Positions 14,339 to 26,880 of a stretch of 64,000 nt of DNA are shown one piece after another (position 1 is the first letter of the stretch; each line of letters begins with the position of its first letter). Source of the DNA: Chromatiales bacterium (GTDB lineage: Bacteria > Pseudomonadota > Gammaproteobacteria > JAGRGH01); the NCBI GenBank assembly GCA_020445605.1, contig JAGRGH010000017.1:26302-90301 (forward strand), given 5' to 3'. The position numbers and the translations under genes were made by a program. Below the pieces are notes generated by a model. The model was not told where the DNA came from. It saw nothing but the letters and a program-made list of their open reading frames with translations, and made no database searches.

Positions 14339-16195
14339 CGGAGCTGCAGGAGCAAGCGCTCGAAGTCGCCTACGTCGAGGAACCGGACTTGGTCTTCGGT
14401 TACGGGCAGGTGTCCGATCATCCCAAGGACGGGCTCTTGCTTTACGGTCCCCATTCGGGACCTAGCCGCTCAAAAGAGATTTCGGTCGGCGTCATCGGAA
14501 CCAGAGAGGGGCTGAACTACTTCAGGAACTGGGCGATAAACTTGGGTGGTTTCATCTCGATCCCGAAACCCGGCAAGAGGGACAAAGAGCACCGTCTTCA
14601 TTTGTCGAACTTTCCGGGCCTGGAGGAAGCCTACGGCCTCTTGATCAGTCCCGGAGACTTCGTCGAGCGGAGAGTGGACCTCAAGGAGCTGGATGACGCG
14701 ACGAAGACAGTCAACCGGCATGAAGCGGTTCGAAAAGCGGTTGATCTTTATATCCGGGAAATCGAGTACCAGGACCAGAACGAGGAACGGACCGTCGATG
14801 TCTGGGTCTTTGTGTTGCCAGAACTCGTCTTCGAACGTTGCAAGCCGCTCTCGCGACGCTCGGGTCTCGACCGCTGTCCGCCAAGGAAGTGCGAAGCACG
14901 AGGCGGATAGTCCCCGATAGGCGTAGCGCGCGGGCGTATGGCCGTAGTGGCGCAGGGGATGTAATTCCCGAAGCCGGCGAAGGCCATATGCAAAGCGCAT
15001 CGCGAAACGCCGTCAAGCCATTTGCGGGAGTTGAGACGGAGGGCTTCCCAACGAGGAAGTCCGCAGTCGCAACGCACGCAGGGCGAATCGGGGCCTGACA
15101 AGTTGTCAAGGAGCGAGTCGATTTTGGTTGACTGGGACGTCCCAAAATCATTCACGAGCGACGAAGACACTCTAGTTGTTACAGGGCGAGTTTGCAAAGA
15201 AGCAAAAGACCCGAACAGATATGCCGTTGTTCGAAGGAGTGGTTGATCAGAGCGATGAAGACATTTTTGACGATGTTCCCGATTTTCATAGGCAGGTCAA
15301 AGCACGCCTGCTCAAGCTGGGTCACACGTCACAGCTCATCCGGGAGACAACACTCGCGCCTGACCAATTCGTGAATAGGGCTGGTTATCCGCTTCGGCCC
15401 CTCCAGGATGCCGCAAGCGTTGCATGGAACATTGCTACCGGCCTCTATTACAAAACGCAGCCGGAGCCGCCTTGGAAATTGGCGAATGTGAGGCCGGGTG
15501 TTTGTTATATCGGGCTCGTGTTCAAACTGATTCCAAACGATCCGAAGGAGCATGCCTGTTGCGCAGCCCAGATGTTCTTGAATGAAGGTGATGCGGTCGT
15601 CTTTCGCGGCGCCAATGGTCCTTGGAAAACCGGAGACTATGAGTTCCATCTCAAAAAGCCAGAAGCCAAGAGGCTGATCTCCAAAGTACTCGACACGTTC
15701 AAGGACAAGCACGGGACGCTGCCAAAAGAGCTTTTCATTCACGGGCGAACGACCTTTGAGGACGGGGAATGGCAGGCATTTACGGAGGCGGCCCCCCAAG
15801 GCACCAATGTCATTGGTGTACGGATCAAGACGACGGCCGGGGACACGAAGCTTTTTCGGAACGGGGACTATCCGGTACTGCGCGGAACGGCCCTTATCCT
15901 TGATGAGAGGAACGCTTACCTCTGGACGAACGGCTTCGTCCCTCGTCTTGATACTTATATCGGACCGGAAACGCCAAATCCTTTGTTGATTACGATCCTG
16001 CGCAGTACCAGAGAATTCCCAAGTATCAAGACTGTGCTTCAGGACATCATGGGGCTGACGAAGATTAACTACAACGCGTGTAATTACAGCGATGGCCTTC
16101 CTGTCACTATCCGGTTTGCCAATAAAGTTGGAGATGTCCTGACAATGGGCTCTGCAAAGGATTCCGAGAGGCAACCGCTCAAGTTTTACGTCTAA
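14335..16195 (+). pseudogene. Short prokaryotic Argonaute, interrupted by a ~300-nt element
   Basis: The N-terminal part (14335 to about 14,865) encodes MID-type sequence through VWVFVLPELVFERCKP. The frame then runs into an insertion and stops at 14910. Coding resumes in another frame at about 15,185, where AKKQKTRTDMPLFEG leads into DFHRQVKARLL, then the PIWI core PPWKLANVRPGVCYIGLVFK, ending at 16195. Both halves together match the usual short Argonaute of about 480-510 aa. The PIWI part lacks an obvious DEDX nuclease tetrad, as expected for short pAgos. The gene is probably inactive, so the SPARTA effector is likely uncoupled from sensing. Confidence 0.8.
14871..15183 (+). repeat. Structured-RNA-like insertion element, copy A
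   Basis: About 300 nt interrupt the Argonaute gene; a related sequence lies at 26,586-26,880. Shared parts in order: a stem TCCGCC/GGCGGA (14877-14882 with 14902-14907), the box AGTCCCCGATAGGC (14909-14922), a segment CGCAGGGCG then ATCGGGGC (ATCGGGG 15087-15093 can pair with CCCCGAT 14912-14918), and a 3' module GCGAGTCG plus hairpin ATTTTGG/CCAAAAT (15113-15148). No ORF of note is inside. The architecture resembles an orphan HEARO/omega-RNA element, which is inference only. Exact ends are uncertain by about 15 nt. Confidence 0.6.
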
Positions 16196-16482
16196 TGCGT
16201 TTCGTCAGACCTTTTGCCTATCAGAGACGACGAACTGATTCACTCGAATGGAAAGACTTATACTGCGATCAAGATGTGGGGAACACGCACCGCTGAAGCC
16301 ATTTGATCTGCTATTGGATAAGTTCACCAAGCGTGGAATCTCGTATCGTGAGAGTACAGCATAACAGTGTATGCAGGTCTGTCTGAACAAGGTCGGTTGC
16401 ATATCCCCATCCAGGAGCAATACGCGCTGACTCAAATCCGTCAGCAGGTCCCAGATTGGAAGTCAAGGTGGTCCTGGCATGC
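16196..16482 (+). other. Gap with decayed coding remnant
   Basis: At about 16,200-16,312 one frame reads SDLLPIRDDELIHSNGKTY followed by TAIKMWGTRTAEAI and a stop. A +2 shift continues as DLLLDKFTKRGISYRESTA to a stop at about 16,364. Together these look like the C-terminus of a lost protein with one frameshift. I do not recognise the family. The rest of the gap has no evident gene. Confidence 0.3.
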
Positions 16483-17136
16483 TCAGCGCTGCCTCCCCCG
16501 ATGTTTATTGAAGCCACACTGGGGGCAGGTCTCGCGCCGGCGGCCTCGGGATTGGAGCGGCAACTGGACGCCACAATCACGGCAGCGATGTCGGTGGTAA
16601 AGCCGACAGCCGTGACAAATAAGTTTTGTACAGTCCACGGGCGAGAGAAAGGACGTTCCGCAGTCCTGACAGGGTCGCTCACGCCAGGTCTCCATATTGA
16701 CCAGGCGCGGCACATGCACGACGCGAGTCAGATCGAAGAGCGGTTTGCCGATCAGTCGCTCATAGGCTTCATAGGCATCGATCAGGGCGCGTGCCGCGCT
16801 GCGTCCGGTCTGTAGCAGACGATCCTGCAGTCGCCAGACTAGGGTCGCCTGCAACATGCGGCGATCATGCGCTCGGTACCAGGTATCGGTGAACGGCATC
16901 TGTCCCGGCGGCGAAGGTTCACCGTGCAACTGCCGATACAAGCGGTTGACCGTGGTCTTTTCCAGGCCGGTCAATTGCGCGACCAGTCCCGCCCGGGCGC
17001 CGAGCTGGATGAGGCGCGCGGATTCCTGGATCCGCGTGGCATAGCCACACAGCTCCGCGGTGCAAACCGCGCGATCGGCCTTGGCAAAAGGACAGAGGCT
17101 GGACAGAAACAACGCTGAATCGGTTTCAGGCTTCAT
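16483..17136 (-). CDS. FlhC-family transcriptional activator (SetC/AcaC-like context)
   Basis: This 217-aa protein resembles FlhC. The N-terminal helices contain the LIQLGARAGLVAQLTGL region, and the C-terminal zinc site is built from CQDCG, CHGC, CRDCG and CPQCG. FlhC pairs with FlhD as an activator complex. It follows an FlhD-like gene with a strong GGAGGG ribosome site. No flagellar gene is nearby. FlhDC homologues called SetCD or AcaCD are master activators of transfer in SXT-type elements and IncC plasmids, so a mobile-element role is more likely than motility. Confidence 0.75.
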   Translation of the reverse strand: MKPETDSALFLSSLCPFAKADRAVCTAELCGYATRIQESARLIQLGARAGLVAQLTGLEKTTVNRLYRQLHGEPSPPGQMPFTDTWYRAHDRRMLQATLVWRLQDRLLQTGRSAARALIDAYEAYERLIGKPLFDLTRVVHVPRLVNMETWRERPCQDCGTSFLSPVDCTKLICHGCRLYHRHRCRDCGVQLPLQSRGRRRETCPQCGFNKHRGRQR

Positions 17137-17152
17137 GTGCTCGCCCTCCCTC

Positions 17153-26408: not shown

Positions 26409-26421
26409 AGTAACAGGGTTG

Positions 26422-26622
26422 ATGAAGAATAGCGGTTACTGTTATTTGTTGGCATGTTTCCTGTTTGCGCCGATGACGAATGCTTTCGCGGAAACCCTGC
26501 AGCACGCCTGGAAGGCCGCTCTGGCGGCGGATCACGGTCTCAAGGCCGTACAGGGAAACACAGCTGCCGCCGCGCAGCAGCTCCCGCTGATCGCCATGGA
26601 GAGCGGAAGCGAGGGCGATTAG
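26422..26622 (+). pseudogene. TolC-like outer-membrane efflux channel, truncated
   Basis: The first ~55 codons encode a signal peptide (MKNSGYCYLLACFLFAPM, ending NAFA) and the first helix of an outer-membrane efflux protein (LQHAWKAALAADHGLKAVQG). The frame then enters the repeat element at about 26,586 and stops at 26622. No TolC-like sequence resumes after the element, so the remaining ~400 codons have been lost. The pump upstream must use another channel or be non-functional. Confidence 0.75.
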
Positions 26623-26880
26623 TCCCCAATAGGCAACGCCGTCTGCATATTCGCAGTTATGAGCGAGAGCGAGTTACGGAGAAGATGCAGCAGCGGCTGT
26701 AGTTGCCGTAGAGGCATTGTGGTAGCCATGACGGAGTGTGACGAGCGAATTTATGAGCAATGTCATACGTAGTCGTGGCGGACGCAGGCCGGTCGGGGCA
26801 AAAAGAATTAATCGTCGCGTTGGCGAGTCGATTTTTGACAGGGAGGTCAAAAATCTTTATCGAGATAGCGACTCGCTTGA
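26586..26880 (+). repeat. Structured-RNA-like insertion element, copy B
   Basis: This is the second copy of the element in the Argonaute gene, in the same + orientation. It shows the 5' stem ATCGCC/GGCGAT (26590-26595 with 26614-26619), box AGTCCCCAATAGGC (26621-26634), CGCAGGCCGG then TCGGGGC (26784-26799), and a 3' module. In that module GCGAGTCG (26823-26830) pairs perfectly with CGACTCGC (26869-26876), enclosing hairpin ATTTTTGAC/GTCAAAAAT (26831-26854). Stem sequences differ from copy A while pairing is kept, which argues for an RNA structure. Confidence 0.6.

Follow-up and report, generated by a model that had tools for sequence, protein, structure and literature searches.

The window analysed here, a stretch of 64,000 nucleotides (nt) from the genome of a gammaproteobacterium of the Chromatiales (GenBank assembly GCA_020445605.1, contig JAGRGH010000017.1, positions 26,302 to 90,301 of the forward strand), contains two copies of a folded mobile element without a protein gene. 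The element is new to Rfam and appears to be of the kind of gene-less elements that move as single strands. It has matches in about one in seven of the sampled genomes of the class (52 of 369), and one symbiont harbours no fewer than 153 copies, yet no family in Rfam 15 matches it. The explanation that we favour, and to which we give about an even chance, is that it represents a new folded and non-autonomous family resembling IS200/IS605, which is moved as a single strand by a nicking enzyme supplied in trans.

Two Copies in the Window

A covariance model (R2) was trained on 14 relatives, with both window copies excluded to avoid circularity. It matched the 64-kb window at exactly two places, 26585–26720 (E 2.4e-31) and 14872–15024 (E 2.8e-16). 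The motif pair GTCCCCRATAGGC...GCAGG...GGGGC also matched twice in the window, against none of 100 shuffles with two matches (shuffle mean 0.00). These searches and the fold tests described below bore out the original prediction, made from the sequence alone, of two related structured elements at about 14,871–15,183 and 26,586–26,880, and the boundaries were refined to 14872–15175 (copy A) and 26585–26879 (copy B). The prediction had also proposed to look for more copies in the same genome, but none beyond these two was found by DNA, motif or model search (with eight candidates scored by the model). A third motif place with one mismatch (locus L008; L and G numbers denote loci and genomes of our sample) was rejected because the remainder of the element is absent by eye. 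The two copies consist of the following parts:

14868–14871, plus strand: target tetranucleotide CNNN, here CGAC, adjoining the 5' end of copy A and placed by the rule of a C at position −4
14872–15175, plus strand: copy A, 304 nt, inside the short Argonaute gene; matched by R2, ends from the joined flanks compared with the homologue P0001
14873–14911, plus strand: hairpin P1 of copy A, arms 14873–14882 and 14902–14911, from the minimum free energy (MFE) fold; P1 is helix 1 of alignment A2, where it covaries and 98.1% of the cells are paired
14908–14922, plus strand: conserved box TAGTCCCCGATAGGC of copy A, carrying the 5' arm of helix PX (alignment A2)
15087–15093, plus strand: 3' arm of PX in copy A, ATCGGGG, partner of the box, enclosing P2 and P3
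15104–15175, plus strand: 3' hairpin P4 of copy A, outer stem TGTC/GACA, inner stem GATTTTGG/CCAAAATC, read against relatives; the outer stem is short and was not picked by the P4-finding script
Within 15104–15175, plus strand: six-base tail CTCTAG, the 3' end of copy A, fixed by the Argonaute junction
26581–26584, plus strand: target tetranucleotide CNNN, here CTCC, adjoining the 5' end of copy B
26585–26879, plus strand: copy B, 295 nt, in a TolC-like reading frame; matched by R2, 3' end from relatives
26586–26623, plus strand: hairpin P1 of copy B, arms 26586–26595 and 26614–26623, from model and covariation
26620–26634, plus strand: conserved box TAGTCCCCAATAGGC of copy B (alignment A2)
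26793–26799, plus strand: 3' arm of PX in copy B, TCGGGGC, from the PX comparison across relatives
26814–26879, plus strand: 3' hairpin P4 of copy B, outer stem GTCGC/GCGAC, inner stem GATTTTTGAC/GTCAAAAATC, tail ending in CTTG, read against relatives

Ends of the Element and Target Rule

Comparison with uninterrupted Argonaute homologues, as proposed in the original prediction, fixed the ends of copy A exactly. When positions 14335–14871 are joined to 15176–16195, a frame of 518 residues is obtained that reads SRRSGLD-LLQGEF across the junction, exactly as in P0001, an Argonaute homologue of 518 residues that shares 96% identity with the query piece. In the 120 homologues listed out of 3,437, a pattern search found both flanking motifs in 68, and the spacing in 62 of these 68 is that of the joined gene. 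Since the joined flanks reproduce P0001, insertion was accompanied neither by target duplication nor by loss of sequence, and the 3' tetranucleotide is part of the element.

The ends are sharp in the many copies of Candidatus Sedimenticola endophacoides (hereafter Sedimenticola), with CGCTAACC on the left and TCTTG on the right, and the 5' flank is constrained, whereas the 3' flank is random. After matches in three loci had been removed beforehand as chance, position −4 relative to the element was occupied by C in 129 of 130 distinct flanks from Sedimenticola and in 78 of 85 distinct ones from other sources; the base preceding this C is rarely a C itself (8 of 130 and 7 of 85, respectively). 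The insertion rule is C-N-N-N followed by the element, i.e., the element stands exactly three bases past a C. The right ends vary among lineages (CTTG, ATCG, ATCT, CTTT, TTTG, and others), and in aligned copies inspected by eye the two ends of the element are not inverted repeats of each other.

Fold and Covariation

The top strand folds into three domains: hairpin P1 on the 5' side, a central domain bounded by helix PX, and hairpin P4 on the 3' side. In the fold of copy A, P1 is followed by PX (CCCCGAT with ATCGGGG) around P2 and P3, and then by P4; the MFE structure of this copy shows only the inner part of P4, and that of copy B swaps P1 for other pairs. The previously proposed pairing between the CCCC box and the GGGGC segment is thus present. 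It closes a nested multibranch domain, and the reading of PX as a pseudoknot was discarded once the fold of copy A showed nested pairing. Compared with shuffled sequences, RNA folding gave z scores of −5.30 for copy A and −5.25 for copy B, and DNA folding of copy B gave −4.23.

Covariation was assessed in 16 aligned 5' parts that had been collected by the box motif and not by P1. In this alignment, from which the tested consensus structure was itself derived (which favours the structure), standard pairs made up 94.4% of the pair cells, as compared to 76.6% in shuffled data and 26–48% for slid structures. In the shuffle tests, which leave relatedness in and whose figures are not probabilities, cells altered on both sides numbered 59 against 18.0 in shuffles, pairs with both-sided change 14 against 9.6 (equalled or exceeded in 3 of 500 shuffles), and further pair types 28 against 25.0 (with 49 of 500 shuffles reaching the observed value). 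One column pair of P1 (6/47) occurs in all four Watson-Crick types. A G-U pair is kept at one place in P1 in 15 of the 16 sequences, the remaining one having A-U, which points to the top strand as the one that is probably folded.

Helix PX was tested in 30 sequences, which remained from 53 representatives after 18 without a strict anchor had been dropped and the other 35 had been freed of duplicates. With the 3' arm located by the neighbouring anchor, independently of pairing, 148 of 180 pairs are formed, as compared to a shuffle mean of 131.9 (standard deviation 2.9) and with none of 20,000 shuffles as high; when the arms were slid by −3 to +2 positions, 58–96 of the 180 pairs were obtained. 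The helix occurs in variants such as CCGCGG/CCGCGG, CCTGGG/CCCAGG, CCCGGA/TCCGGG, and CCCTGA/TCAGGG, and is broken in some representatives. As P1 served as a filter when the copies for this test were gathered, P1 figures from this set are biased. The covarying helices are P1, P2, and PX, to which the claim of covariation is confined; P4, many stems of which were missed by the script, was established by comparison of relatives. Hairpins are thus present near both ends of the element, P1 by covariation and P4 by comparison. The compensating stem changes that had first suggested a selected fold are found in both window copies, and further aligned copies do covary, which confirms them for the 5' half.

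Distribution and Relatives

The elements of this family carry no protein gene and have a length of about 210–305 nt (measured 212–304). When 369 genomes of the same class were searched with the model, matches at E ≤ 0.001 were obtained in 52 of them, some being weak (down to E 3.7e-4), and in 50 of the 314 good genomes. Not more than eight candidates were scored per genome, so that the copy numbers, including the two of the Chromatiales genome, are lower bounds. Three of the bearers (G340, G339, and G040) were assigned by the model E-value alone (best 1.7e-7, 2.3e-8, and 1.9e-5, respectively), and the copies read in G033 run into contig ends. A motif scan of public genomes yielded at least 120 stretches, and 181 of the 206 motif places in these belong to Sedimenticola; the other carriers are Thiodiazotropha, Chromatiales, a tubeworm symbiont, and other metagenome-assembled genomes (MAGs). 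The named relatives are Gammaproteobacteria. Inspection by eye identified the motif matches L082 and L130 as chance and the pattern matches in viral contigs (L013–L019 and L373) as unrelated sequence.

Relatives were also found in plasmid records of Methylomonas, Methylobacter, Methyloprofundus, and Legionella antarctica. The plasmid matches belong to the Methylococcales and Legionella, with a further candidate match in Natribaculum; a Caedibacter plasmid locus was rejected, the box being absent in the scan, and plasmid searches with two other lineages gave no match. In phage records no match was obtained with the Methylomonas copy, and another copy gave 26-base matches only. A second subfamily, 255 nt in length, occupies eight sites on the Methylomonas AM2-LC plasmid (L042–L049); its copies are near identical by eye, have stems changed in step, and end in CTTT. 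Two copies on the same plasmid (L170:2578- and L171:1558-) are broken at the same place by a sequence that, by eye, resembles a group II intron (GTGTGAC start). The spread of the family, the precise insertion, the covariation, and the many copies together support the earlier proposal of a non-autonomous mobile element whose structure is under selection.

Copies in Sedimenticola and Traces of Movement

Sedimenticola contains at least 153 distinct copies with a single core spacing of 288 nt. Among these 153 copies, which were collected by their 5' end, 131 are identical to the reference, 19 have one mismatch, 1 has four, and 2 diverge inside. The Sedimenticola loci comprise 176 complete copies and 45 further ones that are cut by the ends of the loci or lie there. 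Of the incomplete copies, seven were inspected. Bases 1 and 2 are missing in two of them, a third has lost an internal segment, and the remaining four begin within the element. Each of these four trails a full copy, three of them right after its CTTG and the fourth at a distance of two additional bases, and each has its start at a CNNN|C site, with C at both −4 and +1, a pattern to which 12 of 289 internal positions conform. A full tandem pair was not seen in the part of the Sedimenticola loci that was checked. Relative to genes, 17 of 93 copies are in sense orientation, 20 in antisense orientation, 40 are ambiguous, and 16 intergenic; as there is no sense preference in genes, the orientation is not intron-like.

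The folded strand is the G-rich strand in 72 of 98 independent Sedimenticola insertions (72:26, p 3.7e-6) and in 25 of the 30 insertions with |skew| > 0.08 (25:5); a less strict earlier count had given 96:46. The G-rich strand usually is the leading strand, and the lagging-strand template shares its polarity. The strand bias thus fits, without proving, single-strand transposition at replication forks.

Proposed Movement and Search for a Mobilizing Enzyme

In the explanation that we favour, a nicking enzyme acting in trans would cut the folded single strand and rejoin it. P1 and P4 would mark the two ends for this enzyme and PX may hold them close to each other; insertion would take place after CNNN in the exposed template of the lagging strand, in the manner of IS200/IS605. 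Candidate enzymes were searched with family models for Y1 transposases (PF01797), Y2 transposases (PF04986), and reverse transcriptases (PF00078).

A series of results weighs against this explanation. Y1 was detected in 40 of the 52 bearers and in 201 of the 317 other genomes (Fisher p 0.06), but gave no match in 12 of the 52 bearers, two of which have at least eight element-model matches, and none in the Sedimenticola MAG. Seven bearers of 95–100% completeness (G033, G340, G339, G264, G154, G040, and G060) match neither Y1, Y2, nor reverse transcriptase, and G033 and G340 have at least eight element-model matches each. In the loci read, no copy was seen to carry its own gene, and several 5' halves lack a recognisable 3' end. 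A Y1 parent with the same ends was not recognised by motif and model in 30 Y1 loci; in four small Y1 loci from bearers, inspection by eye showed ends unlike those of the element, and the RAYT genes of bearers adjoin other repeats. Moreover, the GC skew from which the strand bias was determined is a proxy for replication direction that may mirror gene direction and was tested in one host, and RNA folding accounts equally well for the covariation.

Y2 was found in 9 of 24 bearers and in none of 16 other genomes (p 0.006), a contrast that is biased because these 16 had been picked as Y1-free. Four Y2 matches occur in the Sedimenticola MAG, and 15 of the 24 bearers, including G033, G340, G044, G259, and G146, gave no match. 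For reverse transcriptase, 12 of the 24 bearers gave a match, as did 4 of the 16 others (p 0.19); no such match was seen in G033, G340, or G044, nor in the Sedimenticola MAG. As each of the three families gave no match in some bearers, all were rejected as the common mobilizer. The element lies near Y1 genes in some of the 30 Y1 loci. At one of them (L187:1723-2034, Bathymodiolus symbiont genome G011) it is located between two pieces of a Y1 gene that match model positions 2–42 and 44–120; the element splits this gene and therefore must have struck it. Clustering of neighbouring proteins gave one dominant chance cluster and no partner. The mobilizer may have been lost after a burst of transposition, may have been missed by these models, or may be of another kind. 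The seven bearers without matches to the three enzyme families turn the question of what moves the element into a testable one, and the CNNN rule together with the fold provides a ready assay and probe for the enzyme. As a separate observation, the RAYT-like Y1 genes at L181, L184, and L198 in bearer genomes have repeats of the GGGGTC type next to them.

Host Genes around the Copies

The genes in which the two copies reside are represented by three pieces:

14335–14871, plus strand: 5' part of the interrupted short Argonaute gene; the open reading frame 14335–14910 matches pAgo_I (E 3.6e-47)
15176–16195, plus strand: 3' piece of the short Argonaute gene (pAgo_I, E 4.4e-157; homologues)
26422–26584, plus strand: stump of the TolC-like gene, 5' of copy B, named after the original prediction and its position behind an efflux operon

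In the region 12953–16195, a gene for a TIR-domain protein (Aga_TIR-PNTD1-PNTD2, E 1.4e-182; TIR_2) is followed by the class I short Argonaute gene. We take this pair to be a SPARTA-like defence operon in which copy A interrupts the Argonaute. Directly upstream of the TolC-like stump lie efflux genes of the HlyD and AcrB types (22216–26408). The earlier statement that each copy breaks a gene holds for copy A, which splits the Argonaute gene cleanly, but only partly for copy B: no plus-strand open reading frame of at least 120 amino acids was listed between 26408 and 27120, and as the TolC-like frame is not continued as a long gene, events beyond the insertion of copy B must have taken place there. 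At the loci L102 and L208 (G046:C10:80802), the TolC-like gene carries this insertion too, between flanks nearly identical to those of copy B, and copy B therefore probably is old and inherited. The element disrupts genes, and these include a defence-type Argonaute.

Alternative Explanations and Relation to Known Systems

About half as probable as a family resembling IS200/IS605 is a separate class of elements of about 300 nt, folded and gene-less, which would be independent of Y1, Y2, and reverse transcriptase, would be positioned by a single C, and would have spread through a large part of the class by means of perhaps a housekeeping nicking activity or its own catalysis. An RNA element, in which the folded transcript would be mobile or functional as a ribozyme or as a retroelement using reverse splicing or target-primed copying, we consider unlikely. 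It would agree with the G-U pair of P1, which 15 of 16 sequences retain, and with the RNA folding z of about −5.3, and group II introns also insert without duplication and can show a lagging-strand bias. However, reverse transcriptase is present in 12 of the 24 bearers only, copies lie in genes in both orientations, the four internal starts are at CNNN|C sites, and a fold that begins at base 2 would leave little space for a promoter of its own.

Somewhat less likely again is a rolling-circle relative of IS91 or Helitron that is moved by Y2, for which the 3' hairpin would serve as the origin and CTTG as the signal. Elements of these groups insert without target duplication and have a hairpin near the 3' end, as does the element studied here, and CTTG, in which many of its copies end, is a target of IS91. 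The distribution of Y2 (9 of 24 bearers and also the Sedimenticola MAG, versus 0 of 16 others) points in the same direction. In contrast to a target sequence, though, the constant tetranucleotide belongs to the element, since the Argonaute frame would be lost if it were assigned to the target. It also differs among lineages, others ending in ATCG, ATCT, or CTTT, and Y2 gave no match in 15 of the 24 bearers, including the five named above. The copy on a Legionella antarctica plasmid (L024:2807-3067) simply adjoins the gene for an IS91-family transposase at its 3' end.

The original prediction had offered an orphan HEARO or omega-RNA as a candidate, i.e., the guide RNA of an IscB/IsrB or TnpB without its gene, which found no support and is very improbable. 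HEARO elements are structured, about 300 nt long, and mobile, and the gene-less element resembles them in structure, length, and mobility; furthermore, in Methylobacter YRD-M1 one copy has a tnpB gene (PF07282; L022:2784-3896) at a distance of 60 bases. This is a single locus, however, and the gene is in opposite orientation, pointing away from the copy. The covariance-model check that had been suggested (Rfam, HEARO RF02033) gave no match in either region at any threshold used: the window was empty at the gathering thresholds of Rfam 15, and scans of both regions up to E 10 yielded no HEARO and nothing credible from any other Rfam family. The Chromatiales genome contained no HEARO match in a search that was weak (0 of 14 control genomes gave a match) and no TnpB match (control matched in 6 of 14 genomes). 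One HNH match, in an open frame of 222 amino acids, is located on another contig of this genome. Apart from the tnpB neighbour in Methylobacter, no nuclease gene associated with the element was seen, IscB models not having been searched in any bearer. In addition, the target of the element is one fixed base and its 3' flank is random, whereas the flank constraint of HEARO/IscB elements is on the opposite side. Decayed miniature inverted-repeat transposable elements (MITEs) of DDE insertion sequences, with the fold as a by-product of inverted repeats, would likewise be short, gene-less, of high copy number, and partly palindromic, but are the least probable of all, as the Argonaute gene shows no target duplication, the ends are by eye not inverted repeats, and the covariation includes the non-terminal internal helices P2 and PX.

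According to a publication on the giant sulfur bacteria Thiomargarita (PMC4853749), these organisms contain many gene-less MITE copies, some of them in genes, and the MITE in hupL has 10-bp direct and 19-bp inverted repeats; the same publication mentions palindrome-associated transposable elements (PATEs) and the HUH enzyme. As far as that text describes them, the Thiomargarita MITEs resemble the element in being gene-less, numerous in a sulfur bacterium, and partly located in genes, but the element shows neither type of repeat found in the hupL MITE and is set apart from it by this description, not by sequence. In the literature covered by our search (supplements and most subscription papers lay outside it), nothing was recognised as the element. 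IS200/IS605 elements and their gene-less derivatives, the PATEs, possess end hairpins and a fixed short 5' target, insert without target duplication, use one strand, and show a lagging-strand bias. The element shares the hairpins, the 5' target, and the lack of duplication, and its strand bias suggests that it shares the other two features as well. It differs from IS200/IS605 in that its whole length folds, including a conserved middle domain, that its target is fixed at one base, and that no parent with the same ends was found and Y1 gave no match in 12 of 52 bearers. Because its behaviour fits this family but the defining Y1 enzyme, for which it was tested, does not accompany it throughout, we class the element beside, and not inside, IS200/IS605.

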